IMG/VR virus record: IMGVR_UViG_3300008107_000576 | Span: 1 to 36,678 of that record | From: a virus | DNA length: 36,678 nucleotides | Direction: 5' to 3' (one strand) | Part shown: in pieces, positions 8,937 to 35,063 of the stretch | How positions within the stretch are numbered: the first letter of the stretch is position 1 | How the letters are laid out: each line of letters starts with the position of its first letter | Made by a program: the position numbers and the translations under genes | The notes under the pieces: generated by a model | The model's input: the letters and a program-made list of their open reading frames with translations, nothing else | The model's database searches: none | What the model was told of the DNA's origin: nothing

Positions 8937-9917
8937 TTAACGAGGCTCAAATTCAGCTAAGTCAAACCCATCTAAGCTATCCTCGTTTGACTCAAAAGTC
9001 ATAGGAGGAAGATTGTTCTTTCTTTGATTAATTAACTTAGATTGCTCGGTGTTTTGTTGACTAATTCTTTTTGCTTTTGCGTCCTCTTTCATCTCTTCTC
9101 TTGACTTTAAGTCGTTCATCTCCATACCACGTAATTGCATACTATACTCAAACTCCTCACGCATTAATTGAGACTTAAGTCTTGCTTCACTTTCTGAACG
9201 CTGAATATCAAAAGCCACCTCAGCCTGTTTAATCTGCATCTTTGAATTGGTTTCCATTTCAATCTTCTGCATAGCTACCTGACCTGCCAACTCTTGAGAC
9301 TTCAATTGTTGTTGAGAAATCATAGCTTGCTTCTGCATCTCCATCTTCTCCTCACGCTCTTGAGTCTTAACTCTCTTAAGTTTCAATAGCTGATTGGCAA
9401 GTTTAAGATTGCGAATCTCACGGATGTCAATTGCGTCCTCAAGATTAATGTCACCCTTAGATAATGCCATTTGGATATTAGCCTCAAGCTGTGCTTTTTG
9501 CTCTTCATCAGGTGAAACCTCAATGAATATACCAAAGTCATAAATATAAAGTTCTTTAATCTCTTCTAATATAGATACGTTGTACTTTCCAATTTGATTT
9601 GCAAACTCATCTTTAAAGTCAGCATATTGTAAAATGTCAGCAATTCTGTAAGTTAAAGCCTCCGCTAATGTACGATATACATACAAAGAACCTTCAAGGA
9701 TATGTCTTGTAGCTGTATTAGAGTTTAACGCAGCCAACTTCTGTAGACCAACCAATGAGTTAGGGTCAGGGTTAGAACCATCACGTGCCTCATTAAGACC
9801 GGTCACCGACCTAATCATATCAATGTAGTGGTTCATATTTGTAATCAACATTTGCGTTTTAGCTGCAGCATAGTGATTCAATAGCACCTTTGTACATACG
9901 AGGAGCGCAAGCAACAT
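8937..9917 (-). CDS. Portal protein, C-terminal part (frame-disrupted)
   Basis: This 326-residue frame continues the portal. Residues 36-70 hold MIRSVTGLNEARDGSNPDP, VGLQKLAALNSNTATRHIL, a highly conserved crAss-like portal block as I recall. Then comes LAEALTYRIADIL. The C-terminal half (about 150-290) is a long charged Gln/Lys/Glu-rich coiled coil (KMEMQKQAMISQQQLKSQEL), as expected for the portal's extended helical region. The first 12 or so residues (MLLALLVCTK) are read from the N-terminal part's sequence in another frame and are probably not real. The two parts overlap by 59 nt, and their combined span is one base more than a multiple of three. Confidence 0.75.
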   Translation of the reverse strand: MLLALLVCTKVLLNHYAAAKTQMLITNMNHYIDMIRSVTGLNEARDGSNPDPNSLVGLQKLAALNSNTATRHILEGSLYVYRTLAEALTYRIADILQYADFKDEFANQIGKYNVSILEEIKELYIYDFGIFIEVSPDEEQKAQLEANIQMALSKGDINLEDAIDIREIRNLKLANQLLKLKRVKTQEREEKMEMQKQAMISQQQLKSQELAGQVAMQKIEMETNSKMQIKQAEVAFDIQRSESEARLKSQLMREEFEYSMQLRGMEMNDLKSREEMKEDAKAKRISQQNTEQSKLINQRKNNLPPMTFESNEDSLDGFDLAEFEPR

Positions 9918-11109
9918 AGTTAGGTATTGCGTGTTGAGATGCTGACTTAGGACGAACCATATTCTCAGACAACTTCCACTGCAATAAGATATTGGTACCC
10001 ATTACCATAATACCCTCATACCAAACATCAATAACTTTTTCAATCTTTTCAAAGTTACCCTCTTCCATCATTTCAACAGGAGGGTTGAAAGTTTCGTCTT
10101 TCTCAATTACTCGAGAACCACCACCTTCAAGTTTCTTCTTTTTGTAAACAACTTTTTTAGTTGACTTATAATTAAAATACAACAACGTGCAAGTATCTCT
10201 GTAGAACATATCGTTCTGATAGAACTGTGCTACGTTGTAATAATCATACCACGCTTGACTGTATTGAGTAATTTCTTGTAAGTCTTCTTTCGTTAAAGAT
10301 TGGTCAATCTTCATTAACTCAGTTAATGGCAATGTCTTAATCTCTCCCCAATAAAAACAATCCTTGAAGAATGGGTCTTCTGTGTAGCTGTAAACAACGT
10401 TAGCCGGGTCTACATAACTTATCTTAACGCCTGTGCCTTGTAGGAACTCGTGCTTTGCAATACTAATACCAATAACAGTTTGGTCGTAATTTAATCTTCT
10501 ACGAGTATCTTCATAATGATTCTCATCAAAGATTGTATTGATTGCTTCTTCTTCTGCTATTTCAATTGCAGGCTTATATTTAAGCTGCATATATAATGAC
10601 AACTCATCGTCTGTTTCAGGAAGTTCTTCAGGGTCCATTAAAAATGGATTAGCACCTGTTAACTCTTGAATTTTTGTAAGAACAGGCTTACCTGCCATTT
10701 GTGTTTCAAGCATATCTTGATACTTGTTTCTTTTAGCTTGAGACATTGCATCTTGTGCATATGCTTTCACTTTAAACAATCTATCAGACATTCCATTAAC
10801 AACAATATCAATAAACTTTGGTATAATAGGAACAGGAGTCCAATCAAGATTCAAGTAAGACAAATCACCATCAATAGCCAACTCATTTTTGTATTTACCA
10901 ATCGGCTGTTCACCTCTCGCATATAGTCTTAGTCTGCGGAAATCTTGCCATTGACCGTAGTATCTACAATTGTTTCCATCTTTTCTAAACCATTCATATT
11001 GAATAGCCTGACCCACTTGCAACCCAAACGCATCAGATGCTTTTTCGGCATCAGTCGCTAACTGACTTGGGAATGCTGCGGTGTTTATGTTGATTGTTAC
11101 ATTTTTCAT
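9859..11109 (-). CDS. Portal protein, N-terminal part (frame-disrupted)
   Basis: The 416-residue product starts at ATG 11109, which overlaps the TerL stop by 4 nt (ATGA) and suggests translational coupling. It contains the portal clip/stem beginnings: EWFRKDGNNCRYYGQWQDF, DLSYLNLDWTPVPIIPKF and DIVVNGMSDRLFKVKAYAQD. It then runs through KISYVDPANVVYSYTEDPFF to CAPRMYKGAIESL, after which it meets a stop (LCCS*). In crAss-like portals I recall roughly a hundred residues between MYKGxIESL and the VTGLNEARDG block; here that segment is absent. This is therefore a portal with a deletion and a frame change near 9876-9883, or an assembly join. Confidence 0.75.
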   Translation of the reverse strand: MKNVTININTAAFPSQLATDAEKASDAFGLQVGQAIQYEWFRKDGNNCRYYGQWQDFRRLRLYARGEQPIGKYKNELAIDGDLSYLNLDWTPVPIIPKFIDIVVNGMSDRLFKVKAYAQDAMSQAKRNKYQDMLETQMAGKPVLTKIQELTGANPFLMDPEELPETDDELSLYMQLKYKPAIEIAEEEAINTIFDENHYEDTRRRLNYDQTVIGISIAKHEFLQGTGVKISYVDPANVVYSYTEDPFFKDCFYWGEIKTLPLTELMKIDQSLTKEDLQEITQYSQAWYDYYNVAQFYQNDMFYRDTCTLLYFNYKSTKKVVYKKKKLEGGGSRVIEKDETFNPPVEMMEEGNFEKIEKVIDVWYEGIMVMGTNILLQWKLSENMVRPKSASQHAIPNYVACAPRMYKGAIESLCCS

Positions 11110-13355
11110 CTAATCAATTGACTTGTTGTTCCTTCGTTTTTATACTTAGCGAAGTTAATAATTAATTTTGATTCTTTTTTCTCCGGTATATATAAGTGCT
11201 TCTGATTAGCCATAATACATAATCCTGAACTAATGGAAGCATCGAATTTCGTTCTATCGTTGATGTCAAATTTTGCCCAATCCTCAAGTGTCCTTGTGAA
11301 CGGCATTGTACCCATTTGCTCCGGGTCTCTATACTTTGCTTCTAAATCAAAACCTACAAACTTCTCTACATAAGACTCAATTGCTGATGCGTGTGCTTGC
11401 TTAACATCCTCAGATGAGTTTGGAATACCACCCAACTCACGCTCGGTTTTTGTCAACTTTGCTAAGTGCTTGTCAGGTCTATTGATTGAATAACCTCTGT
11501 ACCCTCTATTCTTAAGATGGTATAAAAGTCTCGGCTTATTATTCTCTACTAAGATAGGCATTCCGTAGAATACTATTGCCATAAGAACTTCCTCAAAGAA
11601 TATTTCCGCAGTTTGTGGACGGGCAATATATTCTAAGAAAAACTCATTTACAGGAGCATCATCCATATGAAACTTGGTCATACCGTGCAGTGCACCATTA
11701 GACCCACGTCCACCGACTACTGCTGAGATGTCATAGGAGTCACAACCAAATGAACCAAGATGCTCATTGCCGGGATACTTTACACCATTACGTGTATGTA
11801 CATTGTTTTGCATATGCTTAGGCGGTGCCCAACTAATATTGAACCTTCCTCTTGGGTCAGGCGTCCATATCACCTCAGTATCTTTAATACCATCCTTCCA
11901 CGAAAACATTCCACGAGTAAGGTAATGTTCCTTAATCATTGAGTCGTTATAGTCAATCTGCTGATAAATCTTTGTAAGGTTAAACAGAGCTTGCTTGCTC
12001 TCATCACGAAATGCGTGTGACTCTGTACGTGGGAACTGACGGTAAAATTCGTTTAATGCGTCAGCGTCACTCTTTAATGAGTCAACCTCCGCTTCCCAAT
12101 AGTCAATGGCTCCGTTTTTAATCATCATTCCGTCCACGCCCATAATTGGCTCCTCGGGTTTGCGAAATACAGGATGCCCATGTCTATCAATGAACCCTTC
12201 CATATTCCACTCCATCGGAATAAATATAGCGTATAGTCCACTCTTAGTCTGCCCGTTGGCATTACGAACCTTCACATTAGAATCCTCGTAAATATCTTTA
12301 TAGTTCTGCCCCCCTTTGCTAAGTGCATTGGACGTTGAGCCCATCATACACTTGCCAATAATCTTGCTACCTAAGCGCAGACAGGTTTTGGTTACACGCC
12401 AATTCTCTTTGATGTTTACAGGCTTGGTCCACTTGGCGGATTCATCGTGCGCCAAGAATAGCAGCTTTTCTCCATCGTAGGAGTTGTCCTCTGTATTCTT
12501 CCAATCTATTGACGTATCAAGACCATCGACATCATTGTCGTCAGTCTCGTACATATTCTTCTTGGTAATCTTAGCTGCCGGAACTCTGTACGCAAGCTCA
12601 GTCTTTGGCTTATCCATACCATCCATAACCGGTTTGAAAAAGAACGGTAGACGGCTATTGATAGGTACAACCTTGTCGGTGAACATCTTCTTAGCATCGG
12701 CACCCGTCTTTGATAAGATGCCTATACGTGCGTCACGTGCAAGCGTACCTATGTTGACACACTCAGACGATGACATAAAAGAGAACCCTGAACGTCTAAT
12801 CTTAAGGTATATCATACCAAATGACCTTGGGTCAGCACGACAGGCTTCCCAAAATATCCAATAGATTCTATTGGCTTCACGGAAATCAGGATAACCCACG
12901 TCAATACTTGACCACTGCAGGTACATATAATGTGAGCCTGTTATGTAGGTTTTCTTTCCGTTGTTCATAAACCAAAAGCCTTGCTCTCTATAATCAAACT
13001 CCTGCTCGATGTAATCGACCCAACGGTTCTTAAATTCTTTTGGCTTTTCGTTCCACTGAAATATGGATTGGATTTTAGCTAAATCTCTTGGCAATGGTTG
13101 ACGTTCCCAATACTGTTCAGCGTTAGCGGAGTGTCTTTGAAGACACTTATCAGGAGTGGCGGGTAACGCAATGCGTAATCCTTCTATCTCGTATATCTCA
13201 CCTATCTGTCCGGTCTTTGAAATAACAACAACATCGTATTGGTCGTTATAGCCGTAAAGCCACGACTTGACTCTATTTTTATTAGAGACAACTGCAGGTG
13301 GGATATAATCCTTGAGCACCTTGCATAGACTATTGTTTTGACCTTCGTTCTGCAA
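11106..13355 (-). CDS. terL: Terminase large subunit
   Basis: This 749-residue packaging motor pumps DNA through the portal and cuts concatemers. The ATPase domain shows a crAss-type Walker A-like RRSGFS at residues 187-192 and a Walker B region LLFLAHDESAKW at about 298-309. The latter has the acidic pair at D304/E305. The nuclease domain begins near FGCDSYDIS (D539), with GSNGALHG after it and DVKQAHASAIESYV further on. The N-terminal 130 residues are an extension typical of crAss-like TerL. The gene overlaps the 96-aa gene before it by 26 nt and the portal by 4 nt. A copy of the 16-bp palindrome lies inside it around codon 72. Confidence 0.92.
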   Translation of the reverse strand: MQNEGQNNSLCKVLKDYIPPAVVSNKNRVKSWLYGYNDQYDVVVISKTGQIGEIYEIEGLRIALPATPDKCLQRHSANAEQYWERQPLPRDLAKIQSIFQWNEKPKEFKNRWVDYIEQEFDYREQGFWFMNNGKKTYITGSHYMYLQWSSIDVGYPDFREANRIYWIFWEACRADPRSFGMIYLKIRRSGFSFMSSSECVNIGTLARDARIGILSKTGADAKKMFTDKVVPINSRLPFFFKPVMDGMDKPKTELAYRVPAAKITKKNMYETDDNDVDGLDTSIDWKNTEDNSYDGEKLLFLAHDESAKWTKPVNIKENWRVTKTCLRLGSKIIGKCMMGSTSNALSKGGQNYKDIYEDSNVKVRNANGQTKSGLYAIFIPMEWNMEGFIDRHGHPVFRKPEEPIMGVDGMMIKNGAIDYWEAEVDSLKSDADALNEFYRQFPRTESHAFRDESKQALFNLTKIYQQIDYNDSMIKEHYLTRGMFSWKDGIKDTEVIWTPDPRGRFNISWAPPKHMQNNVHTRNGVKYPGNEHLGSFGCDSYDISAVVGGRGSNGALHGMTKFHMDDAPVNEFFLEYIARPQTAEIFFEEVLMAIVFYGMPILVENNKPRLLYHLKNRGYRGYSINRPDKHLAKLTKTERELGGIPNSSEDVKQAHASAIESYVEKFVGFDLEAKYRDPEQMGTMPFTRTLEDWAKFDINDRTKFDASISSGLCIMANQKHLYIPEKKESKLIINFAKYKNEGTTSQLIR
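13131..13146. repeat. 16-bp palindrome GTGTCTTTGAAGACAC, copy 2
   Basis: Identical to the copy at 6499-6514 but located inside the terL coding sequence, so it is not there as a terminator. Confidence 0.8.
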
Positions 13356-17920: not shown

Positions 17921-20900
17921 TTAAGCTAAATTATTGTTTTTGAGAATATTTTTTATTGATTTAAGCTCATCACTTATTTCTTTGAAAGCGTTTACATAAG
18001 AAGCGTAAATGGCATCTTTCTCAAATTGTAGAATTGGACTGCCACCTTGTTCAGTAATAACTTCTAAGCCATTTTCATCAACTCTAGCTATTGGGTTGGT
18101 TTCTACCACACAAGACATTGCTTGTTGTACCTCTTGAGCTATGAATCCATACTTTTTGTGGCAAGACCTATCACCATTCCAACAGTAACTTACCGGTCTT
18201 AATTTGATAATATCATCTAAGCCAAAGCATGTATCTTGAATGGTATTTTTTCTTCTACCATCAGATATACCACCACCCCATTGACATAAGTTGTTTACAA
18301 ATGTGAAGTTGTTTGCTACAGCTGGTATGCAAGAACCTATGATATGTGCGTTGGTAGCACTATTTGTACTATTACATAGCCCTGCAAGAACAGATGAAAA
18401 ACACGAGTTAGCTATGTTATTTAATCCACCACCAACAAATGTATAATTTTGACAACAAGCTCTATTGCCTTCTCCTCCTACTATAGCTGAATATGTAGTT
18501 GATGCAATATTATTATATCCACCACCTACGAATGAACTAGTGCCTGAAGCGGTATTTGTTTGACCCCCTACTATAGTTGATAAATAACCTGATGCTGTAT
18601 TAGTAAGACCTCCTCCAATTGTAGCCCTAGTGTTTGATGCTGTATTACCATTACCACCTCCTATGAAAGAACGCCCACCTGAAGCAGCATTTCCATCTCC
18701 TCCGCTTATTGTTGCAAGATAACCACTTGCTGTATTGCCTACACCTCCTGCAATAGTAGTCCATCCATTATTAGCAGTGTTAGAAAGACCACCACCTACA
18801 AAACTACAAGCTCCTGATGCTGTGTTATTTTGTCCTCCTGCTATTGTTGAGTGTGTACCTGTAGCTACATTATATTTACCACCTGATACTGTTGTCCAAG
18901 GTGCTGATGCAGAATTACCATAACCTCCTGATACTGTAGCATATGAGCTTGTTGCACCATTTGATAAACCACCTCCAACAAAAGAATCATATCCTGAAGC
19001 TGTGTTTGATATACCTGCACCTACAAATGCTTGAGAGCCTGATGCTGTATTACAACTACCACCTAAAACAGCTGCGTTTGTACCTGATGCTGTATTTGTA
19101 TTGCCGCCACCTACAGTAGAACGAGAACCTGAAGCTGTACTTCTATATCCACCGCTTACTGTAGAATTACTATTATTTGCTACATTACAATAGCCCCCTG
19201 ATACTGTACTACTATTTGCTAAGGCTCTGTTACATTTTCCACCACCAACAAAAGATGCGTACCCTGAAGATGTGTTAATATATCCTCCTACAATAGCTGA
19301 GTAAGTATTAGATGCTATGTTAGAATCACCTCCAACTACAGCTCTTGTTCCTGATGCGGTATTTAATCTACCTCCCATAACAGCAGAATCATCTCCTGTT
19401 GCAACGTTAGACCTGCCGCCTAATATCATTGAATAATAACCACTTGCTGAGTTGTTTATTCCTCCTAATATAGAAGCTGCTTTCCCTCCTGCTCTATTTT
19501 GAAATCCACCGCCTACAAAAGAGAAACATCCTGTATTTACTTTTGTAGGAGCTACGCTAAATCCTGCACCTGCCCATGTACCACCTGTAGTATTATTACC
19601 AACTCCACCACCTACAGCAGCTCCTAAGTTACATAAATCATTTACTGAATGATATATTGTATTACAATAACCACCACTTAATGTTGTATATCTACCTGAA
19701 GAAGTATTTAATGCACCACCTCCTATTGTAGCATAAACTGAACACGCTACGTTTGCATAACCATTTCCTATAAATGAAAAGTTAGCAGTAGCACTATTAG
19801 TTTGTCCACCCACTACTACTGAATGAACAGCAGATGATGTGTTACCTCTACCGCCTCCTATAAAAGAACAAGTTCCTGAAGCTGTGTTTCCTTGACCACC
19901 TCCAAGAAAAGACCATCCTCCTGAAGCTATGTTATTAGCACCTCCTCCTATTGTTGAACAAGCAGCTGAAGCTGCGTTTAAAACACCACCTCCCACAAAA
20001 GAAAGTGTTGCAGAAGCTGTATTGCTCGACCCACCTGCTATTGTTGCGTAGTAATTACCTGATGCTGTATTTACTTCTCCACCTCCTATAAATCCATAAG
20101 AAGCACCACAAACTTTATTATTATTACCTCCTGCAACAGCACCATATACTGCTGATACTCTGTTATTAGCACCACCTCCTATAAAAGACCATCCTGCACA
20201 AGCGGTATTAAGACAACCACCACCAACAAAAGCAAATCCTTGTGTTGTACAGTTGTATCTTCCACTAAATGTTCCTGAACATCCTGCTGCTGCACTATTT
20301 TGTAATCCACCACCTACAATAGAATGTCCTGATGTTGCTGTATTAAATTGTCCACCAAGAACAGAAGCATGTCCTGCTGATGCAGTATTTCCTTGTCCAC
20401 CTCCTATTGTTGCACAGTTACCTGAAGCTGCGTTAGATATACCACCTCCAATTTTTGCACGATAGCCTGATGCTGTATTACTTTGACCACCTCCAATAGA
20501 AGAGCTGTATTGTGAGGCAGTGTTATTAAGACCTCCTGATATAGTGGCATAAAAATTACCATTTGCACAGTTGTTTTGACCACCTCCTATAGAGTTAGAC
20601 TCTCCTGAAGCACAGTTATTTCTACCTCCTGCTATGACAGATAAAAGACCTGAAGCAGTGTTGGAACATCCTCCACCTATAAATGATATATTACCACTTG
20701 CTGCGTTAGCTTTACCACCAACAATTGCACCACAGTTACCTGCCACTCCATTGATACTACCTGCTCCTATAAAGGAATAACTACCACTCGCTGTGCTTGC
20801 ATAACCTCCTGCTACTACACTATAAGAATTTGATGCTGTATTGCTTGCTCCTCCTCCAATAAAGGCTTGAGTGCCACTTGCAATGTTTAAACTTCCACCT

Positions 20901-23900
20901 ACTATAGCCCCTCTATTTCCTGAAGCTGCATTTGTATTACCACCACTTACAGTAGAACGATAGGCTGAAGCTGTGTTACTAATACCACCACCAACAAACG
21001 CCCATGAAGATGAGGCTATGTTACTTTCACCACCTGCTATGGTTGCTCTTGTTCCACTTGCTGTGTTACATCTACCACCACCCACTGCACCAAATCCACC
21101 ACATGTAATATTGCAAAAACCACCTGAAACAACATCAGTGTAATCAGTTGCTCTATTTTGAAATCCACCTCCTATGAAAGAGAATTTACCTGCTGCATAG
21201 AAAGTTGATGGTGCTGTTGTAAAGTATCCTGCATCATTCCACGTACCTCCTGAAGAGTTGTTACCTGCTCCTCCTGCAATTGTAGCACCTGCTGTACAAG
21301 TACTATTTAAAGAATTACATATTCTATTACAACTACCTCCCCCTATTGTTCCTGAATTTGAATAGTTATTATTACCATAACCACCACTTATTGTTGATGC
21401 ATAAGCTGTAGCATAATTCGCAATACCACCACCAATAGTTGAATATTGTGCTGATGCTGTGTTACCTGTACCACCTCCAACTTTTGCTCTATTATTTGAA
21501 GCTGTGTTATTATCACCACCTGATACTGTAGAACAGTTTCCTGATGCTATATTTAATTGACCACCTGATACAGTTGATGCTGAACCTGAAGCTGTACTTG
21601 TAAATCCACCTCCAATAGTAGCACATCCTGATGATGCTGTATTGTTTTGACCACCTCCAATTGTTGAAACTCCACCTGATGCTGAGTTAGCTCTACCTGA
21701 ACCTACAAAAGCAAAACTTGTTGCAGAGTTTTGATAACCTCCTACCACTACACTATAGTATCCCGATGATGTGTTATCATAACCACCACCTATAAATGCT
21801 CTGTATTGTGTAGCAGCATTTTGGTCACCACCAACCACTACTGTATATGGTGCTGTTGTACAGTTAGCTTGACCACCACCTATCATAGAGTACGCACCTG
21901 ATGCAGTATTAGTACATCCACCACCTACGAAAGAGCAATTGCCTGATGCTGTATTAAACCTACCTCCACCAACGAATGAAGAGTTACCGCTTACTGAGTT
22001 ACTAAGACCACCACCCATTATTGAATAAGTACCTGATGCCGCATTGCCTTGACCACCTGCAACTGTTGAACAAGCACTTGATGCTATATTTGATATACCA
22101 CCACCTACAGCTGAATGATTATTTGAAGCTGTATTGCATTGTCCACCACCTACAAAACTATATGTTCCTATTGCTACGTTTGAATGACCTCCAACAACTC
22201 CTGAAAAAGAATTACAAGTAGTATTGTTATAACCACCACTAATTGTTGAATAATTACCACACGCTTTATTATTATACCCACCACTAAGAGAAGAAGAATA
22301 TCCACTTAATGTATTAGTTCTTCCTCCTCCTAAAAATGACCAAGCTCCACTATTAGTGTTTCCACAACCTCCTCCTACGAAACTGCAAGCCCCTGAAGCT
22401 GTGTTAGATTTACCTGCTCCAATAAATGTCATAGAAGCAGAAGCAGAGTTATTTAAACCACCAACTATTGTAGCATGATTCACATTAGCAACGTTACCTT
22501 CACCTCCTGCAATTGTACTTGCATAGCTTCCGCTTGATGTGTTTCCATAACCACCTGCAATAAGCGAACCATATCCTGACGTATTGTTTGATGTACCACT
22601 TAGAGAAGCACTGAATTGTCCTGATGCAGTATTGGCTACACCACATCTTACTGATGAACAAGTTCCACCTCCAAGCACAATAACAGCTTCACCTGAATAA
22701 GGTGCTGTATTGGTAATACAGAACGTACCTGATGTTGTAATTGGAGACCCGCTTATGCTTATTCCGCCACCACCATTTGCAGCAACACAAGTCACCGTAC
22801 CTACGCAAGTGGTTTTATTATTGAATGTATTCCAATCAGTAGAACTTAAGAATCCATTGCAAGCTGTGCCTGCTTGTGTGATGCTAATAGCACCTGTGCC
22901 ACTATTGTAAACAATTGGAGCACTTCCACTTAATGAACCTAATGTAATATAATTAGAACCATTGGTGATTTGATTATTATTAGTTGGGATAGTTATAACA
23001 CCCGTAGTGCTATTGTAAGCACCACTGCCTGCTGCAAATGATAATGCAGCACGTGCTCTACTATTTAAGAAATATTGATTTGTAGTTCCTTCAGGAATAT
23101 TGTCAGTAGTCAAACTAACAGCACCTGTAAATCCGTTTACACTTACTACAGCGTCAGTATTATCTACTTGCTGCCACGCTGTACCGTCAAATATTGCCCA
23201 ATCCCCTACGAACCAATCTGTGATTCCGTCAAGGTTTGTACTACCTGCTACTGATACGATATAGTAATAACCTCTTGTACCAACACCACTTGTTAATGTA
23301 GGTGTGTTAGTCGATGCATTCCAAGTACCTTGGTAGATTGTACTACCAATGAGTCCATTAATTTGATTCTGAACTTTACCAAATGCAGTAAGAATACTAT
23401 CAGTAGCACTAATTGAACCACCGGTAATATTAACACCGGTAAGAACCTTTCCTGTTACTGCAGCATTATTTAAAGTCACTGAAGCAGCACCCGGACCTGT
23501 TGCCGTAGCCTCACCCGTAAGTGAAGTAATGTAGTTACCTGCTGCTTGCTTATTATTGAAAGTGGTCCAATCATTTGAACTTAAATATCCATCCTGACTG
23601 CCACTTGCTTGTTGAATTGTAATATTTGGAGTAGAACCACCGCTTGATGCCAATGGACTACTTGCTGTAACGTTACCTACCTTAGTATTAAATGTTGACC
23701 AATCTGCAGCACTTAAAGCACCACGATTAGCAGCACTCGCTGTAGGAACGTTTAATGTAATTACAGGAGTTGTTGTACCGTTAGCTACACTTGAACTTAA
23801 GTCGGTGCCACTTGTACCCAATGTCAATGCAGCTACTGATGTAACTGTACCAACACTCCAACTTCTATCTGCACTCAAATCATATTGAGTACCATTGATA

Positions 23901-26644
23901 GAAAGTAATCTTGATGTAGGCACATAACTTCCTGCCGGCTGCTTGTTATTGAACGTGTTCCAATCTGTAGAAGAAAGGTATCCATCACTCGCTGCACCTG
24001 CTTGTGTAATACTAAATGTTCTATTTGCACTCAAGTTACCACCGCCTTGTAAAGGAGCCGTAGTTGAAATAGTTGTTGCAGCATTTGCAGGAGTGTATCC
24101 TAATATGCCACCAATTGTATTTAATTCGTATCTGCTATTAGTAGTATTCCAATAAATACTTTGATTAGCCGTAGGGCTTGGAGCATATACGTTGTGCAAT
24201 TCCCCGAGTTCGTAGCCCGTATCAATTGCCATATAAATCTTACCATTGTTAGCGTGAGCATATGTCACGTATCCAACAGTAACTGCGTGATTAGGTGCTA
24301 CAGGTCTGATATTTGTAAGCTGACCTGCAACTGAAGTTGAAACATATAAAATGTCCCCATCTACCCAAGTTTCTCCTTGTAAAGAACCTGTAGTATTAAT
24401 ATTTTTTACCTCACCAAATGCAGTAACAAAACCTTCTTGGTTAGCATTGATAGTCTCTGTAACTAATCCTAATACCTCTGTACTATTATTCTCATTATTA
24501 CCTTGCGCTAACACTACAGCAAGACGCTGTCCTTGTGCTCCACCCTCTGCAACTTTTCTTACTCTTACAACTTGATAGTTTGCTTCAAGTAAGTCAATAC
24601 CTGTTTTATTTACTACACGAGTAACGTTTTCCTGTCCGATTTGAAGTGTAACATTATTACCCATCAAACGTAAATCCATTGTCCCATCAGTAGAGTTCCA
24701 CTGCATACGTCCAACCTGTAATGCACCCGTTGGTGTTAAGTCAGCTTGAAAATATCCTGCAGAAATGCCAAACTCACCAAGGTCAACATTGGTAGTTGCT
24801 CCTGTGTAAGGTACAAATCCTGTTAATCCCGGAAACGTTTGTAACGCACCTGTTCCATCAATGTACTGAAGTGTTGTACCGGCTCCCGTAATGGCGATTG
24901 TGCCATTGGAAGTTAATGGGCTGTTCGCCACACTAAATGCTGCCGGCATACTTACACCAACTGAAGTAAGACCTGTGTCTAAATCAGTCCAAGATGCTTG
25001 AATAGTATTACCATCTTGCTCAGTAAGTGTTAATGTCTTTGTAGTTGTACCTGTAACCGCAGCACTTACGATACTTCTATCATAAGCTGTATTCCAATTG
25101 CCTGAGTTATCAGTAATGTATGTGATGGTTCCGGCTGTAGACTTAACTAAGCCCGTTCCACCTAAATAGTTTTGTTTATTATTGAAAGTGCTCCAATCAG
25201 TTGCACTAAGGTATCCATCTACTAATGCTGTTGCTTGAGGAATACTAAATGCACCTGTAAGATTATTATAAACTAAAGGACTACTTGCACTAAGCGAACC
25301 AAGTGTAATATAATTTGCTCCGTTTAAAATCTGATTGTTATTGGTAGGAATAGTAATAACACCTGTTAAACTGTTATACGCTCCACTGCCTGCAGCAAAA
25401 CTAAGAGCACCTCTTGCTCTACTATCTAAATAGTAAAGATTGGTAGCACCCTCAGGTATGTCATCAGTTGTAAGACTCACTGCTCCAATTTGTCCATTGA
25501 CAGAAGTAACTGACTCCGTATTATCAACCTTACTCCAAGCACCTCCACTAAATATAGCCCAATCACCAATCTTCCAATCAGTGATGCCATTCAAGTCAGT
25601 ATTACCTGCTACGCTAACAATATAAAAATGTCCTTGCGTACCTACGCTACTTGTTAAAGTAGGCGTATTTGTTGCTGCATTCCAAGTACCTTGGTATTGA
25701 ACACCACCTATTAGTCCATTGATTTGGTTTTGAACCTTACCAAAAGCTGTTAAAATGCTATCACTTGCACTAATTGAGCCGCCTGTTACGTTAAGACCTG
25801 TTAAGACCTTAGCAATAACTGATGCATTGTTAAGTGTGATAGGAACTGAGCCCGGTCCGGTTGCCGTAGCTTCACCTGTAAGAGCAGTAATATACGCCCC
25901 TGCATTTTGCTTACCATCAAATGTAACCCAATCAGACGCAGTTAAGTAACCACCTTGCGTGCTGTTGGCTACCTGAATACTAAATGTATTTGTCCCTGAA
26001 TTAAATAATAAAGGAGAAGTTGCACTATATACCGGAAGATTTGTCCATTGAACACCTGTTACAGTGCTCTCTAAAACCTGTCCTGCTGTACCTGCTGACT
26101 CATTGTAATCTACAACAACACCTTGAATAGATAACTGAGTTCCAATATTTGCAGTATCTGCTGTAATATTTATAGCTTCTAAGTCAGCATCTAATATGAT
26201 GTCAAGGTCTGCTGTATTACCTTCCTCTAATACTTGTTGTAAGTTTGGAGTAAAGATGGGAGGTAGTGTGAACCACTCTACTCCATCACCTGTACTTGTA
26301 AGAACCTGACCTGCCGTACCAATTGAATCAGCAGAATCAAATAAGCTACCTACTATGTGAGTCTCCTCATTTAAGTAAGTTATAAATAAATTTGCGGTAT
26401 CAGTTACGTCAAGATTAGTAGTGGTTATGGTTCCAAACAAGTTAATGTCTTGTGTGGCTGTATTGCCATAATCCAAAATACCTTGCAAGTTGTTTGCAGG
26501 AATTACGGGAAGAAATACATCTAACAATTCCTGTAAGGTAAAGTTATACGTTACGTCTTCTATCTCACCACCAACACTTGTACCGATTAATTTATCGGAC
26601 AACTTAGGCACCGGGGCGACCTCGTATGTACTAATCTTTGACAT
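17921..26644 (-). CDS. Giant tail fibre/adhesin with YadA-like repeat array and S74 chaperone domain
   Basis: This 2907-residue receptor-binding fibre has five regions. (1) An N-terminal virion-attachment domain (about 1-45: KISTYEVAPVPKLSDKLIGT ... TYNFT) is shared with the 88-aa protein just upstream. (2) Fibre-shaft modules run to about 1330, with a duplicated unit (SISASDSILTAFGKVQNQIN ... GITDWxxGDWAIF ... LTTDDIPEG) near 25.3-25.8 and 22.9-23.5 kb. (3) A beta-roll array of 15-residue repeats of the form xxNTASGxxSxxGGG spans about 1335-2765. (4) A chaperone domain of the endosialidase/S74 type follows (SDGRRKNTI near 2790, then YGFIAQEVQQAM); its Ser normally self-cleaves. (5) A C-terminal coiled coil (KEISDELKSIKNILK). 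It is probably trimeric. Confidence 0.9.
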   Translation of the reverse strand: MSKISTYEVAPVPKLSDKLIGTSVGGEIEDVTYNFTLQELLDVFLPVIPANNLQGILDYGNTATQDINLFGTITTTNLDVTDTANLFITYLNEETHIVGSLFDSADSIGTAGQVLTSTGDGVEWFTLPPIFTPNLQQVLEEGNTADLDIILDADLEAINITADTANIGTQLSIQGVVVDYNESAGTAGQVLESTVTGVQWTNLPVYSATSPLLFNSGTNTFSIQVANSTQGGYLTASDWVTFDGKQNAGAYITALTGEATATGPGSVPITLNNASVIAKVLTGLNVTGGSISASDSILTAFGKVQNQINGLIGGVQYQGTWNAATNTPTLTSSVGTQGHFYIVSVAGNTDLNGITDWKIGDWAIFSGGAWSKVDNTESVTSVNGQIGAVSLTTDDIPEGATNLYYLDSRARGALSFAAGSGAYNSLTGVITIPTNNNQILNGANYITLGSLSASSPLVYNNLTGAFSIPQATALVDGYLSATDWSTFNNKQNYLGGTGLVKSTAGTITYITDNSGNWNTAYDRSIVSAAVTGTTTKTLTLTEQDGNTIQASWTDLDTGLTSVGVSMPAAFSVANSPLTSNGTIAITGAGTTLQYIDGTGALQTFPGLTGFVPYTGATTNVDLGEFGISAGYFQADLTPTGALQVGRMQWNSTDGTMDLRLMGNNVTLQIGQENVTRVVNKTGIDLLEANYQVVRVRKVAEGGAQGQRLAVVLAQGNNENNSTEVLGLVTETINANQEGFVTAFGEVKNINTTGSLQGETWVDGDILYVSTSVAGQLTNIRPVAPNHAVTVGYVTYAHANNGKIYMAIDTGYELGELHNVYAPSPTANQSIYWNTTNSRYELNTIGGILGYTPANAATTISTTAPLQGGGNLSANRTFSITQAGAASDGYLSSTDWNTFNNKQPAGSYVPTSRLLSINGTQYDLSADRSWSVGTVTSVAALTLGTSGTDLSSSVANGTTTPVITLNVPTASAANRGALSAADWSTFNTKVGNVTASSPLASSGGSTPNITIQQASGSQDGYLSSNDWTTFNNKQAAGNYITSLTGEATATGPGAASVTLNNAAVTGKVLTGVNITGGSISATDSILTAFGKVQNQINGLIGSTIYQGTWNASTNTPTLTSGVGTRGYYYIVSVAGSTNLDGITDWFVGDWAIFDGTAWQQVDNTDAVVSVNGFTGAVSLTTDNIPEGTTNQYFLNSRARAALSFAAGSGAYNSTTGVITIPTNNNQITNGSNYITLGSLSGSAPIVYNSGTGAISITQAGTACNGFLSSTDWNTFNNKTTCVGTVTCVAANGGGGISISGSPITTSGTFCITNTAPYSGEAVIVLGGGTCSSVRCGVANTASGQFSASLSGTSNNTSGYGSLIAGGYGNTSSGSYASTIAGGEGNVANVNHATIVGGLNNSASASMTFIGAGKSNTASGACSFVGGGCGNTNSGAWSFLGGGRTNTLSGYSSSLSGGYNNKACGNYSTISGGYNNTTCNSFSGVVGGHSNVAIGTYSFVGGGQCNTASNNHSAVGGGISNIASSACSTVAGGQGNAASGTYSIMGGGLSNSVSGNSSFVGGGRFNTASGNCSFVGGGCTNTASGAYSMIGGGQANCTTAPYTVVVGGDQNAATQYRAFIGGGYDNTSSGYYSVVVGGYQNSATSFAFVGSGRANSASGGVSTIGGGQNNTASSGCATIGGGFTSTASGSASTVSGGQLNIASGNCSTVSGGDNNTASNNRAKVGGGTGNTASAQYSTIGGGIANYATAYASTISGGYGNNNYSNSGTIGGGSCNRICNSLNSTCTAGATIAGGAGNNSSGGTWNDAGYFTTAPSTFYAAGKFSFIGGGFQNRATDYTDVVSGGFCNITCGGFGAVGGGRCNTASGTRATIAGGESNIASSSWAFVGGGISNTASAYRSTVSGGNTNAASGNRGAIVGGSLNIASGTQAFIGGGASNTASNSYSVVAGGYASTASGSYSFIGAGSINGVAGNCGAIVGGKANAASGNISFIGGGCSNTASGLLSVIAGGRNNCASGESNSIGGGQNNCANGNFYATISGGLNNTASQYSSSIGGGQSNTASGYRAKIGGGISNAASGNCATIGGGQGNTASAGHASVLGGQFNTATSGHSIVGGGLQNSAAAGCSGTFSGRYNCTTQGFAFVGGGCLNTACAGWSFIGGGANNRVSAVYGAVAGGNNNKVCGASYGFIGGGEVNTASGNYYATIAGGSSNTASATLSFVGGGVLNAASAACSTIGGGANNIASGGWSFLGGGQGNTASGTCSFIGGGRGNTSSAVHSVVVGGQTNSATANFSFIGNGYANVACSVYATIGGGALNTSSGRYTTLSGGYCNTIYHSVNDLCNLGAAVGGGVGNNTTGGTWAGAGFSVAPTKVNTGCFSFVGGGFQNRAGGKAASILGGINNSASGYYSMILGGRSNVATGDDSAVMGGRLNTASGTRAVVGGDSNIASNTYSAIVGGYINTSSGYASFVGGGKCNRALANSSTVSGGYCNVANNSNSTVSGGYRSTASGSRSTVGGGNTNTASGTNAAVLGGSCNTASGSQAFVGAGISNTASGYDSFVGGGLSNGATSSYATVSGGYGNSASAPWTTVSGGKYNVATGTHSTIAGGQNNTASGACSFVGGGLSNTANNGWTTIAGGVGNTASGYLATISGGDGNAASGGRSFIGGGNGNTASNTRATIGGGLTNTASGYLSTIVGGQTNTASGTSSFVGGGYNNIASTTYSAIVGGEGNRACCQNYTFVGGGLNNIANSCFSSVLAGLCNSTNSATNAHIIGSCIPAVANNFTFVNNLCQWGGGISDGRRKNTIQDTCFGLDDIIKLRPVSYCWNGDRSCHKKYGFIAQEVQQAMSCVVETNPIARVDENGLEVITEQGGSPILQFEKDAIYASYVNAFKEISDELKSIKNILKNNNLA
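18340..22650 (-). repeat. Array of about 95 degenerate 45-bp repeats inside the fibre gene
   Basis: Protein period is 15 residues with consensus GGG-x-x-NTASG-x-x-S-x-x. The Gly, Asn, Ala-Ser-Gly and Ser positions are strongly kept, while the two residues after NTASG and those around GGG vary. Many repeats carry Cys before or after GGG. Two long non-canonical interruptions (about 21160-21330 and 19490-19670) resemble each other. Confidence 0.85.
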
Positions 26645-31957: not shown

Positions 31958-32419
31958 ATGAAAACACCACCAAACGACTACCTAAAATTTTGGCGAGTCA
32001 TCCGGTATTATATGAAGGCAAAGCATAATCTGAGCCAAGCCGACCTCGACATAATCCTATTCCTATACTCAGAAGGATACTTCGGTCAGAAGGACTTTGA
32101 CAAGTTCTCTGAACTCGTAAGTTGGGAAGTGGGTAGGTTCAAACGCCTACAGAAAGAAGGTTGGATTGTCCATTTTAGAAAAAGACGTGGCAACAGCCGT
32201 GCCTTATACCAACTTGGAGAAAAGGCTAATCGAGTTGTTCTCGATATATACCGCAAACTAAATGGGGAAGAAATCCCGACAAGTATGTCTGCAAACCCTA
32301 TGTTTTTAAGAAATGTATCTTATAACGATAAGGTTTACAGAAATATGATTCTTGAAATGAACGCCTACAATAAGACGCACAAATATAAAAAGCCTAAGGC
32401 TGAAGAGGTCGAAGACTAA
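31958..32419 (+). CDS. Winged-helix (MarR-like) putative regulator
   Basis: This 153-residue protein is the only gene on the plus strand between the left edge and 36.4 kb. Helical segments (KFWRVIRYYMKAKHN, SQADLDIILFLYSEGYFG) are followed by a recognition-helix-like SWEVGRFKRLQKEGWIVHF. The wing is FRKRRGNSRALYQLGEKANR. This matches a MarR/PadR-type wHTH. I recall similar proteins in phages of Bacteroidota. The C-terminus is polar and basic (NAYNKTHKYKKPK). It is divergent from the small-protein operon and convergent (4-nt overlap) with groES, so it could repress the operons on either side. The start has the AAATTAAATCAA context. Confidence 0.55.
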   Translation: MKTPPNDYLKFWRVIRYYMKAKHNLSQADLDIILFLYSEGYFGQKDFDKFSELVSWEVGRFKRLQKEGWIVHFRKRRGNSRALYQLGEKANRVVLDIYRKLNGEEIPTSMSANPMFLRNVSYNDKVYRNMILEMNAYNKTHKYKKPKAEEVED

Positions 32420-32673
32420 AGTACAACGACTACGTCACGCTCTGAGATGATAGTGTACTGCGTATCATCTATCAGCATTGTAAAGCTGTGCGCCTTGTCG
32501 TAGTACAACTCATCACCCTCGTCAATAACTGACACGTCAGTCCCGGATGCTATGACCATAGCACGCTTGTAGCGTAGCTGATTGGTATCCTCCCCTGACA
32601 ATATCAGTCCCGACTCAGTCTTGACATTCTCCTGAACGTCTTTAACGATAATGTATTTGCCTATTGGTTTCAT
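32416..32673 (-). CDS. groES: GroES-like co-chaperonin (phage-encoded)
   Basis: The 85-residue product has GroES layout. The N-terminal strand is PIGKYIIVKDVQE. The mobile loop TESGLILSGED holds the hydrophobic LIL triad that docks on GroEL. The strand YKRAMVIASG is followed by DEGDELYYDKA (the VGDxVxF position) and a terminal ISERDVVVVL (GroES SESDILAIV). It is 10 or so residues shorter than bacterial GroES, chiefly around the roof hairpin. It ends the four-gene operon with GroEL. The chaperone pair could enlarge or specialise the folding cage for phage proteins. Confidence 0.75.
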   Translation of the reverse strand: MKPIGKYIIVKDVQENVKTESGLILSGEDTNQLRYKRAMVIASGTDVSVIDEGDELYYDKAHSFTMLIDDTQYTIISERDVVVVL

Positions 32674-33020
32674 TATAAAAACTTTTTTAAACTGTGAACT
32701 ACCTGACGAAATAAATAGTCTTTGAATTGCTGCTGCATAGGTAAATCCTCAAAAGGTACAATGCAAGGATGCTCTTTTTTGTCAGCATCTTTAACTTCAC
32801 CATATACCCATCCGGTGTCAATTTTTTGCTTCATCCAACTGTTGTGACTTGCATCAGGTCCCGCATTAGGATTCTCCACGTGGAACATCACACCCAATAC
32901 TGCTGACTCTTTTTGCCAAGCCGGTGCTTCGTCCCAAGGTAATTGAGAACTATCTCCCATTGCTAAACAATACTCTTTGTTGATTTCGTGTGCCACTTGG
33001 GCAATGTCTGTTACTGTCAT
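32673..33020 (-). CDS. RyR-domain protein
   Basis: The 115-residue protein is essentially one RyR domain: AHEINKEYCLAMGD at the start, PWDEAPAWQKESAVLGVMFH, NPNAGPDASHNSWMKQK, GWVYGEVKDADKKEHPC and VPFEDLP...QQFKDYLFRQVV. These are the conserved positions of the family named after ryanodine receptors. In prokaryotes RyR domains have been proposed as nucleotide-ligand sensors in conflict systems. Here it lies between groEL and groES, sharing its start base with the groES-side stop. The ligand and role are unknown. The start at 33020 has the AAATTAAATCAA context. Confidence 0.85.
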   Translation of the reverse strand: MTVTDIAQVAHEINKEYCLAMGDSSQLPWDEAPAWQKESAVLGVMFHVENPNAGPDASHNSWMKQKIDTGWVYGEVKDADKKEHPCIVPFEDLPMQQQFKDYLFRQVVHSLKKFL

Positions 33021-33054: not shown

Positions 33055-34671
33055 TTATTGTTGTTGCTCGTATGTACGAGCCATTGTGATAATTGCATTA
33101 GTGCTTAGGATGGTTACAGCTACACTCACTGCGTTTTGCAATGCTGACCTTGTAACTTTCAACGGGTCAATAACACCCATCTCAACCAAGTCACCCATCT
33201 GTCCGGTCTTTAGGTTGTACCCGTGACCGATAGGTGTTCCATCTTTGTACACATCACTTGGTTTAAGACCTGCGTTAGCAAGTATTTGTTGGAACGGAGC
33301 CATTAGTGCATTACGCATAATAGACATTGCTGCGTCATACTCACGACTATCACTTGGTCCTTCTATATCAACACTCTCATCAAGTAATGCCTTGCCGGCA
33401 CCCGGTAAAATACCTTCCTCAAGTGCTGAACGAACTGCACACACAGCGTCATCAACCCTGTCGTACAACTCTTTCTGCTCAAGGTCAGTCTGACCACCAA
33501 CAAAAATAACACCTATGCCACCTGTAAGTGAGGCAATACGCTCAAGCAAGAAGTCTTTGTCAGCTTTTTTAGTTGCTTCTTTGTGTGCGTCCCACAACTG
33601 ACGAACACGTTCGTCTACAGATTTCTCATCTGACTTAGCGGCACTGCGAATAATGACAGTCTTGTCCTTGCTCACAATCACCTTGCCTGCGTGACCTAAG
33701 TCTCCGTAGTTGATATGGCTTAAATCATCACCCGTCTTCTCACTATAGTAAGTAGCACCCACACTAATCGCAATGTCTTGCATCAACTCGTGCTGCTTAT
33801 AGCCAAAGTTTGGCGGAGGCACAGCTACAACTTTCAAGTTCCCCTTAACTGAGTTCGCTGCAAGTGTATTTACTACGTTTGTGTTACACGGTGAGATGAT
33901 AAGTAGCTTCTTTCCTTCTGAGATAATTGGTTTCAATACGTTCTCAATCTGCAAGATGTTAGCTATCTCCATATCACATACCAAAACCATCACATCTTCA
34001 AAGACACACTCATCTTTCTTTTGGTCATTGATAAACATCGGGCTCAAATACCCTCTGTCAAACTTCAAACCCTTAGTTGTCTCTGCATACGTCTCATTAG
34101 TTTGGCTTCTTTCCACTGTCACAATACCGGTCTTACCCACGTCCTTATACACCTCAGCAATAATGCGACCAATCTCTCTGTCGTTGTTAGCTGAGATAGC
34201 TGCCACGTCAAGTAGCATACTACTACTCACCTTTTTGGCTTTCTTTCTCAACTTGTCCACCACCTTGTTACTAATGTCCACCATATGTCTTAGCACCTCA
34301 GTCCTGTTCATATCTTCTTTGATATGCTCAAGTCCTCCAAGTACCAATCCTTCTGTAAGAACAATAGCCGTGGTCGTGCCATCACCTGCTGATGTAGCTG
34401 TCTTGTCTGCCGCCTCTTTCATCATCTTAACCGCAAGGTTCTCCGATGGGTCAATAAGGTCAATTGACTTAGCAACTGTTACACCATCCTTAGTAACTGT
34501 AATGCCGTGTGTGTGATGCGGACTCTCAATGAGTACAGTGTTACCACTTGGTCCGAGTGTTGACTTAACAGCCTTTGACATCTTAACGACACCACTGATA
34601 AGTTTCTTTCTGCCGTCACTTCCGAACTGTAAATCCTTGGGTGAGTACCCAATTCCTGATGTTTCTACCAT
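33055..34671 (-). CDS. groEL: Phage-encoded GroEL chaperonin (60 kDa type)
   Basis: This 538-residue group I chaperonin has LGPSGNTV (39-46), the ATP-site GDGTTT (96-101), the apical-domain block RGYLSPMFIN (206-215) and RVDDAVCAVRSALEEGILPG (405-424). D408 corresponds to the ATP-hydrolysis Asp (D398 of E. coli). The family's GGG after EEGIxPG is GAG here. The C-terminus ends TYEQQQ with no GGM repeats. The hydrophobic substrate-binding positions are partly changed (M in place of the Y203 equivalent). It forms an operon with its upstream Acb2-like gene and with the RyR and GroES genes downstream. It is likely to help fold virion proteins; cellular origin by transfer is likely. Confidence 0.93.
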   Translation of the reverse strand: MVETSGIGYSPKDLQFGSDGRKKLISGVVKMSKAVKSTLGPSGNTVLIESPHHTHGITVTKDGVTVAKSIDLIDPSENLAVKMMKEAADKTATSAGDGTTTAIVLTEGLVLGGLEHIKEDMNRTEVLRHMVDISNKVVDKLRKKAKKVSSSMLLDVAAISANNDREIGRIIAEVYKDVGKTGIVTVERSQTNETYAETTKGLKFDRGYLSPMFINDQKKDECVFEDVMVLVCDMEIANILQIENVLKPIISEGKKLLIISPCNTNVVNTLAANSVKGNLKVVAVPPPNFGYKQHELMQDIAISVGATYYSEKTGDDLSHINYGDLGHAGKVIVSKDKTVIIRSAAKSDEKSVDERVRQLWDAHKEATKKADKDFLLERIASLTGGIGVIFVGGQTDLEQKELYDRVDDAVCAVRSALEEGILPGAGKALLDESVDIEGPSDSREYDAAMSIMRNALMAPFQQILANAGLKPSDVYKDGTPIGHGYNLKTGQMGDLVEMGVIDPLKVTRSALQNAVSVAVTILSTNAIITMARTYEQQQ

Positions 34672-34675
34672 TTGA

Positions 34676-34999
34676 TTAATATTTGAATGTTAAAACTTTT
34701 ACTACACTCATCTGAGCATTTAAGATTTCTCCAATTGCGTGTTGGAACAATGTCTCATACAATGGTCTATCAGTTCCCATATTGGGATTGTGATACTTTT
34801 TGTTCATCAAGTCAGCCAACTCAGCACATAACTCTTTTGCTCTTTGAACGGAAGGGTCATTACTTGGGTTAAATGTTAATCCAACTAATGCCTCTCCAAA
34901 AGTCAATGTGATTTCTGACTCAGGCATAACGCTGTTTGTACTGTGTGTTTTTAACACTTCTTCGATTGGTTTGTCAATTTTTAATTCAAAATCACTCAT
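34676..34999 (-). CDS. Acb2/Tad1-hairpin-like protein, candidate cyclic-nucleotide sponge
   Basis: The 107-residue product opens with a polar stretch (residues 1-30). LTFGEALVGLTFNPSNDPSV leads into helix 1 (QRAKELCAELADLMNKKY), a 15-residue polar linker and helix 2 (YETLFQHAIGEILNAQMSVVKVLTF). This two-helix pattern, with FNPSxDxxV before helix 1 and AQMxVVKxLT ending helix 2, is what I recall of the Acb2/Tad1 hairpin domain (formerly DUF7681). Its members bind cyclic nucleotides and block CBASS or Thoeris. It is the first gene of the chaperonin operon, behind a TATATTTG box. The ligand is inferred; some family members may have other roles. Confidence 0.55.
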   Translation of the reverse strand: MSDFELKIDKPIEEVLKTHSTNSVMPESEITLTFGEALVGLTFNPSNDPSVQRAKELCAELADLMNKKYHNPNMGTDRPLYETLFQHAIGEILNAQMSVVKVLTFKY

Positions 35000-35034
35000 T
35001 TGATTAAATTTAATTGTTAAATAATAATAAATCT

Positions 35035-35063
35035 CACGCTTTGCGTGCTATTGTACAAATATA
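35035..35063 (-). promoter_or_regulatory. Promoter and leader hairpin of the Acb2-groEL-RyR-groES operon
   Basis: Minus-strand TATATTTG (35056-35063) fits TAnnTTTG, about 57 nt before ATG 34999. The leader contains a CACGC-AAA-GCGTG hairpin (35035-35047). No CIRCE-like inverted repeat is present. Confidence 0.5.

Follow-up and report, generated by a model that had tools for sequence, protein, structure and literature searches.

A phage chaperonin gene cluster encoding an RyR-domain protein and a likely diverged member of the Acb2/Tad1 hairpin superfamily

The viral stretch analyzed here (36,678 nucleotides, the IMG/VR record IMGVR_UViG_3300008107_000576, hereafter the window) encodes, as the first gene of a cluster with groEL, groES and a gene for an RyR-domain protein, a conserved 107-amino-acid protein that almost certainly belongs to the Acb2/Tad1 hairpin superfamily (PF24729), in a diverged branch of it. 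Proteins of the Acb2/Tad1 family take up the signaling molecules by which bacterial immunity raises the alarm, and Acb2 (Vs.4 of phage T4; also known from Pseudomonas aeruginosa phage p26) is a hexameric cyclic-oligonucleotide sponge. The window protein is likely to be a stoichiometric sponge for a nucleotide signal, encoded together with an RyR protein probably directed against cyclic ADP-ribose (cADPR). With it the superfamily gains a large branch, with relatives encoded in 173 viral-contig stretches in one scan, that standard profiles have missed and that is linked, through neighboring and fused genes, to the RyR proteins recently described as anti-Thoeris factors.

The hairpin gene, its cluster and its phage

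The open reading frame at 34676–34999 on the minus strand starts with ATG and its translation reads ...TLTFGEALVGLTFNPSNDPSVQRAKELCAELADLMNKKYHNPNMGTDRPLYETLFQHAIGEILNAQMSVVKVLTFKY; the two peptides singled out in the sequence-only reading, FNPSNDPSV and AQMSVVKVLT, are both found in it. The number of its viral-contig relatives and their conserved motif, TFGExLVGLTFNPSGD...K...AE...GEILNAQM.VVK.LT, show that the frame is real and did not arise by chance. An alignment of 27 family proteins has 18 invariant positions, including F34, G35, V39, G40, K55, A59, E91, A95, Q96, M97, K101 and T104, and among the matches listed in a genome-contig scan at least one contig with a relative is a Bacteroidia MAG. 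Alignment and structural model together delimit a hairpin domain, residues 32–106 (34682–34906, minus strand), and an N-terminal extension, residues 1–31 (34907–34999, minus strand). The extra N-terminal 30 residues noticed earlier are thus present in frame, but the targeting or oligomerization role proposed for them finds no support; the segment varies within the family and is predicted to be flexible, AlphaFold2 confidence before residue 31 being low (block means 61–67). In most relatives TFGE is preceded by no more than some 10 residues, and M25 is an alternative start; the start at 34999 is plausible because its AATCAA-ATG context is common to the groEL and RyR gene starts.

The hairpin gene, groEL, the RyR gene and groES lie nearly without gaps on one strand. 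The gene for GroEL (Cpn60, 538 amino acids; 33055–34671, minus strand) follows the hairpin gene after 4 nt, and that for GroES (85 amino acids; 32416–32673, minus strand) shares one base with the RyR gene; both were recognized from their ORFs and profile matches. The 115-amino-acid RyR product (32673–33020, minus strand) matches PF02026 at 1e-11 (45.4 bits with a cut-off of 27.4) and is of RyDEP type, with H59, W62, H84 and D101 corresponding to RyDEP H75, W78, H100 and D117 at identical spacings of 3, 22 and 17. The same tetrad pattern and spacing are present in all 79 of the 79 RyR ORFs of the loci fetched for comparison. According to a 2026 report, RyR-domain proteins of phages either break down Thoeris signals or sequester them, and the characterized ligands of RyR domains are 2′/3′-cADPR (PMC13232231, preprint). 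Cleavage was seen with the founding RyDEP only; six of eight other homologues bound signals and none of these cleaved them, so that a conserved site is no guarantee of cleavage (PMC13232231). The presence of this gene so nearby, which the sequence-only reading did not bring up, bears directly on the function of the hairpin protein.

At 35056–35063 (minus strand), 56 nt ahead of the start of the hairpin gene, is TATATTTG, which resembles a Bacteroidota-type −7 element (TAnnTTTG), a likeness that carries little weight when 41 such octamers occur in the window. It is followed, just upstream of the hairpin gene and within 35034–35063 (minus strand), by an inverted repeat, GCACGC-AAA-GCGTG, and TATATTTG and the repeat are possibly promoter and operator. 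At the other end of the cluster an opposite-strand gene (31958–32419, plus strand) ends against groES; its product has weak similarity to a PHROG transcriptional regulator and the gene in its place in the podovirus ctfjg026 is annotated as a repressor.

The sequence-only reading took the phage to be crAss-like, which the large terminase subunit, TerL (11106–13355), contradicts. It is 79% identical to that of Manatee Spring podovirus ctfjg026 (60.9 kb), 44% to that of Flavobacterium Elemovirus and 39–32% to those of Cellulophaga and Tenacibaculum phages. Its 87 matches comprise 68 from Flavobacterium Elemovirus and 15 from Cellulophaga phages, the rest being from Tenacibaculum, Maribacter and an unclassified podovirus; the Cellulophaga phages listed are of the phi46:3, phi38:1 and Calle type, and no crAss-like record is among the matches listed. 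Judged by TerL, the window phage is close to flavobacterial podoviruses. Elemoviruses themselves have a canonical hairpin protein. Within the annotated phage collection ctfjg026 is the nearest phage by TerL; it has groEL-groES, and the 42 kb of it that were examined contain neither a hairpin gene nor an RyR gene, so that in this lineage the two have the look of accessory additions at the chaperonin locus. Elsewhere in the window the portal gene is split, with overlapping ORFs at 8937–9917 and 9859–11109 (minus strand) matching the C- and N-terminal parts of one PHROG portal family, phrog_6547, which may reflect a frameshift, a fault of assembly or a gene that is truly in two parts. A 2907-amino-acid ORF (17921–26644, minus strand) separates the small genes from the terminase/portal block.

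Superfamily membership and predicted fold

Scanned as a single sequence, the window hairpin protein had no useful match in Pfam, PHROG or PADLOC, a DUF4290 hit at E 0.037 being noise. The profile search that had been suggested for the Acb2/Tad1 hairpin also came out negative when run on this protein alone, as PF24729 was not matched at its gathering score. The reason is that the whole branch scores under the Pfam cut-off: relatives 57–69% identical to the window protein reach 14–22 bits where 27 are needed, and 11 of 30 aligned family proteins match PF24729 at E values up to 1. T4 Vs.4 matches the same model at 7.1e-20. BLAST ties the window protein to proteins of phages EcP1, DSL-LC05 and Pmp11 (from 2e-8 for EcP1 to 3e-5), all of which are above the PF24729 cut-off at 37–42 bits.

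Similarity chains may mislead for short helices, and for this reason an independent profile was built from eleven hairpin proteins (two of them, L088 and L089, under the PF24729 cut-off) with the window branch and the EcP1, DSL-LC05 and Pmp11 proteins left out. The window protein scores 48.3 bits against it and T4 Vs.4 22.9, whereas none of 1,029 scored shuffles exceeds 7.3. With hhalign, the window branch aligns to canonical hairpins, a set that includes EcP1, DSL-LC05 and Pmp11, at E 1.7e-21 over 77 columns. Its alignment to the validated Acb2 proteins of the T4/p26 group is not significant (E 0.058, probability 0.9%), and the canonical hairpins do match that group, in helix 2; as judged from these alignments, the link from the window protein to validated Acb2 runs via intermediates. 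Searches of PDB sequences with phmmer and the family profile found no Acb2 and no Tad1, while the canonical-hairpin profile retrieved Vs.4 at 0.0014, on par with a designed protein, and a mixed profile did so only at 0.11.

AlphaFold2 predicts helices at residues 34–39, 49–69 and 79–104, with block-mean pLDDT of 83–98 from residue 31 on. The two-helix hairpin anticipated from the letters is thus borne out by the model, where the latter two helices are antiparallel and C-terminal and are accompanied by a short N-terminal helix; the model has no beta-strands. When predicted viral structures were searched with it, the two best-ranked entries, at E 2.9e-4 and 1.3e-3 and each with probability 1.00, were proteins carrying the annotation Acb2/Tad1 hairpin. 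Comparison with PDB folds placed Acb2 (8h2x) at Z 6.1, over 64 residues and with 3.5 Å rmsd, level with unrelated helical hairpins; a PF24729 member used as control gave the same level for T4 Vs.4 (7uq2, Z 6.2) and Z 5.3 for Tad1 (8kbb), so this comparison is unable to separate members from look-alikes. Foldseek against the PDB returned weak generic helical matches alone for the window and control models alike and therefore has little power for this fold. The Acb2/Tad1-hairpin assignment of the sequence-only reading is accordingly supported strongly, though indirectly, by the BLAST bridge, the independent profile, hhalign and the viral fold matches.

The comparison of pocket residues leaves aside Y11 and K26 of PaMx33 and takes T4 Acb2 as its reference. 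The T4 Acb2 mutant Y8A is reported to be defective in binding cyclic dinucleotides, and F82 makes a stacking contact with the ligand (PMC12657218). The PF24729 coordinates put T4 Y8 at model position 2, where the window family has a nearly invariant phenylalanine, F43; this register comes from the Pfam model coordinates, the T4 IKGY segment not being alignable by MAFFT or local HMM. From F43 to the helix-1 lysine (the invariant K55) the spacing is three residues shorter than in T4 Acb2. Further along, A95-Q96-M97, K101 and T104 are the residues of note in helix 2, and the invariant T104 occupies the position of T4 F82, so the cyclic-dinucleotide pocket is not fully kept. On these alignments the aromatic residue and the lysine appear to be retained and one stacking residue to be lost relative to T4 Acb2.

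Linkage and fusion to RyR domains in other phages

Linkage was counted starting from the RyR domain alone, in 80 viral-contig loci. A hairpin gene is present in 11 of these. It adjoins or overlaps the RyR gene in seven, is fused to it in frame in two (L017 and L121) and is 1.7 and 2.9 kb distant in the other two, so that nine of the 11 are contiguous or fused, and either gene order occurs. The ten newly fetched RyR-hairpin loci represent ten different clusters of the 68 formed at 90% DNA identity; five of the 11 contigs had already been found by the hairpin search. Some of the RyR-linked hairpins are of the window branch and some are canonical, above the PF24729 cut-off. Viewed from the hairpin side, RyR is close by in five of the 80 best relatives, making the link recurrent and not obligatory, and groEL is close by in nine of the 80.

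The single protein of L121 has RyR and hairpin Pfam domains that are both above cut-off, but as L121 and L017 are short metagenomic contigs their fusions may be assembly faults. Both domains are also above cut-off in SUFG_00048 of Sulfitobacter phage phiCB2047-B (AGH07415.1, 188 amino acids; L175:3977–4543), a protein annotated as hypothetical that is an RyR-Acb2 hairpin fusion in the isolate genome of a cultured phage. The notion that a single protein could block two classes of immune signal is thereby directly testable, and the neighborhood of RyR genes offers a route to further signal-blocking proteins. DUF5522, with a CCNNxCRHCPY motif, shares a reading frame with both RyR and the hairpin in L017:143–871 and with the hairpin alone in L004:4842–5228. 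Beside its window-branch hairpin gene (L049), contig G016 has a second one (L090:1101–1340, minus strand), above the PF24729 cut-off and with T4-like aromatic-lysine spacing, giving two candidate sponges in one phage. No paper naming both the RyR domain and Acb2 was found in the literature searched, mostly without subscription journals, and earlier notice is possible; neither Acb2 nor Tad1 is named in the RyDEP preprint (PMC13232231).

Proposed function and relation to known systems

The hairpin protein is proposed to be a phage signal sponge, most likely an Acb2-like oligomer formed via the helical hairpin, that would bind without cleaving a nucleotide immune signal, either a cyclic di- or trinucleotide of CBASS or the cADPR of a Thoeris system. 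The signal would be held in pockets between protomers with the use of F43 and K55 and so be kept from host effectors. The co-encoded RyR protein, perhaps expressed along with it, would sequester or hydrolyze 2′/3′-cADPR, and with both in one cluster two signal classes would be disabled at once. The flanking GroEL and GroES probably help phage proteins to fold, and their genes probably mark a hotspot of insertion.

That the protein is a generic two-helix hairpin, whose likeness to Acb2 is a coincidence of short helices, would fit with the lack of a direct PF24729 match and with PDB fold matches to generic helical hairpins, but it is very hard to reconcile with 48.3 bits against 7.3 for the best shuffle in the independent profile test, which argues strongly against it, with the hhalign and viral fold results and with the FNPS and AQM..VK motifs that the window protein has in common with proteins above the PF24729 cut-off; we give it hardly any credence. 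A superfamily member that is devoid of sponge action and has some role internal to the phage, for instance as a nucleotide-sensing regulator or a chaperonin adaptor, is improbable to a lesser degree. The groEL neighbors of some relatives, GroES a few genes off in phage DSL-LC05 and the non-conservation of the F82 position could all be taken that way, yet most relatives have no groEL neighbor, pairing and fusion with a signal-binding RyR domain recur, and the gene is accessory in its occurrence, ctfjg026 having its chaperonin genes and, in the part examined, no hairpin gene.

Within the sponge reading itself, with which it is compatible, specificity for Thoeris cADPR instead of CBASS cyclic oligonucleotides is unlikely, though it has more to commend it than either of the foregoing. 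The coupling to RyR domains, given their characterized ligands (PMC13232231), and the loss of the T4 F82 stacking residue speak for it; against it, Tad1 binds gcADPR with an N-terminal antiparallel beta-sheet plus helices (PMC12043709), of which the strands are lacking in the window model, and a second protein for the signal of its RyR partner would be redundant. On balance we lean towards a cyclic oligonucleotide, and not cADPR, as the ligand of the hairpin protein. A wider proposal, which we make tentatively and rate at a little under an even chance, is that an Acb2-type hairpin sponge and an RyR domain, side by side or in one polypeptide, may form a recurrent phage counter-defense module that neutralizes the cyclic-oligonucleotide signals of CBASS and type III CRISPR together with the cADPR signals of Thoeris, the window hairpin representing a large unrecognized sponge branch with its own ligand preference.

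In its architecture, a short N-terminal helix ahead of a two-helix hairpin with no beta-sheet, the window model is like Acb2 (PMC12043709), with which the protein shares a Pfam superfamily, by the Pfam-coordinate register an apparent aromatic residue at the Y8 position, a lysine in helix 1 and, at equal spacing, a methionine and a basic residue in helix 2. It differs from Acb2 in having no significant direct alignment to it, in an entry to helix 1 that is about three residues shorter, in T104 for F82, in an FNPS loop and a GEILNAQM helix where Acb2 has IKGY and LKEASMW, and in its flexible N-terminal extension. With Tad1 it has in common the hairpin domain named in PF24729, and the N-terminal antiparallel beta-sheet of Tad1 is missing from the model. 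The RyR product belongs to the same PF02026 group as RyDEP and keeps its H75/W78/H100/D117 tetrad, while pairing or fusion with an Acb2-type hairpin goes unmentioned in the RyDEP report (PMC13232231). The window protein is almost certainly a new member of a known superfamily, a variant marked by its sub-cut-off branch and by the recurrent pairing and fusion with RyR.
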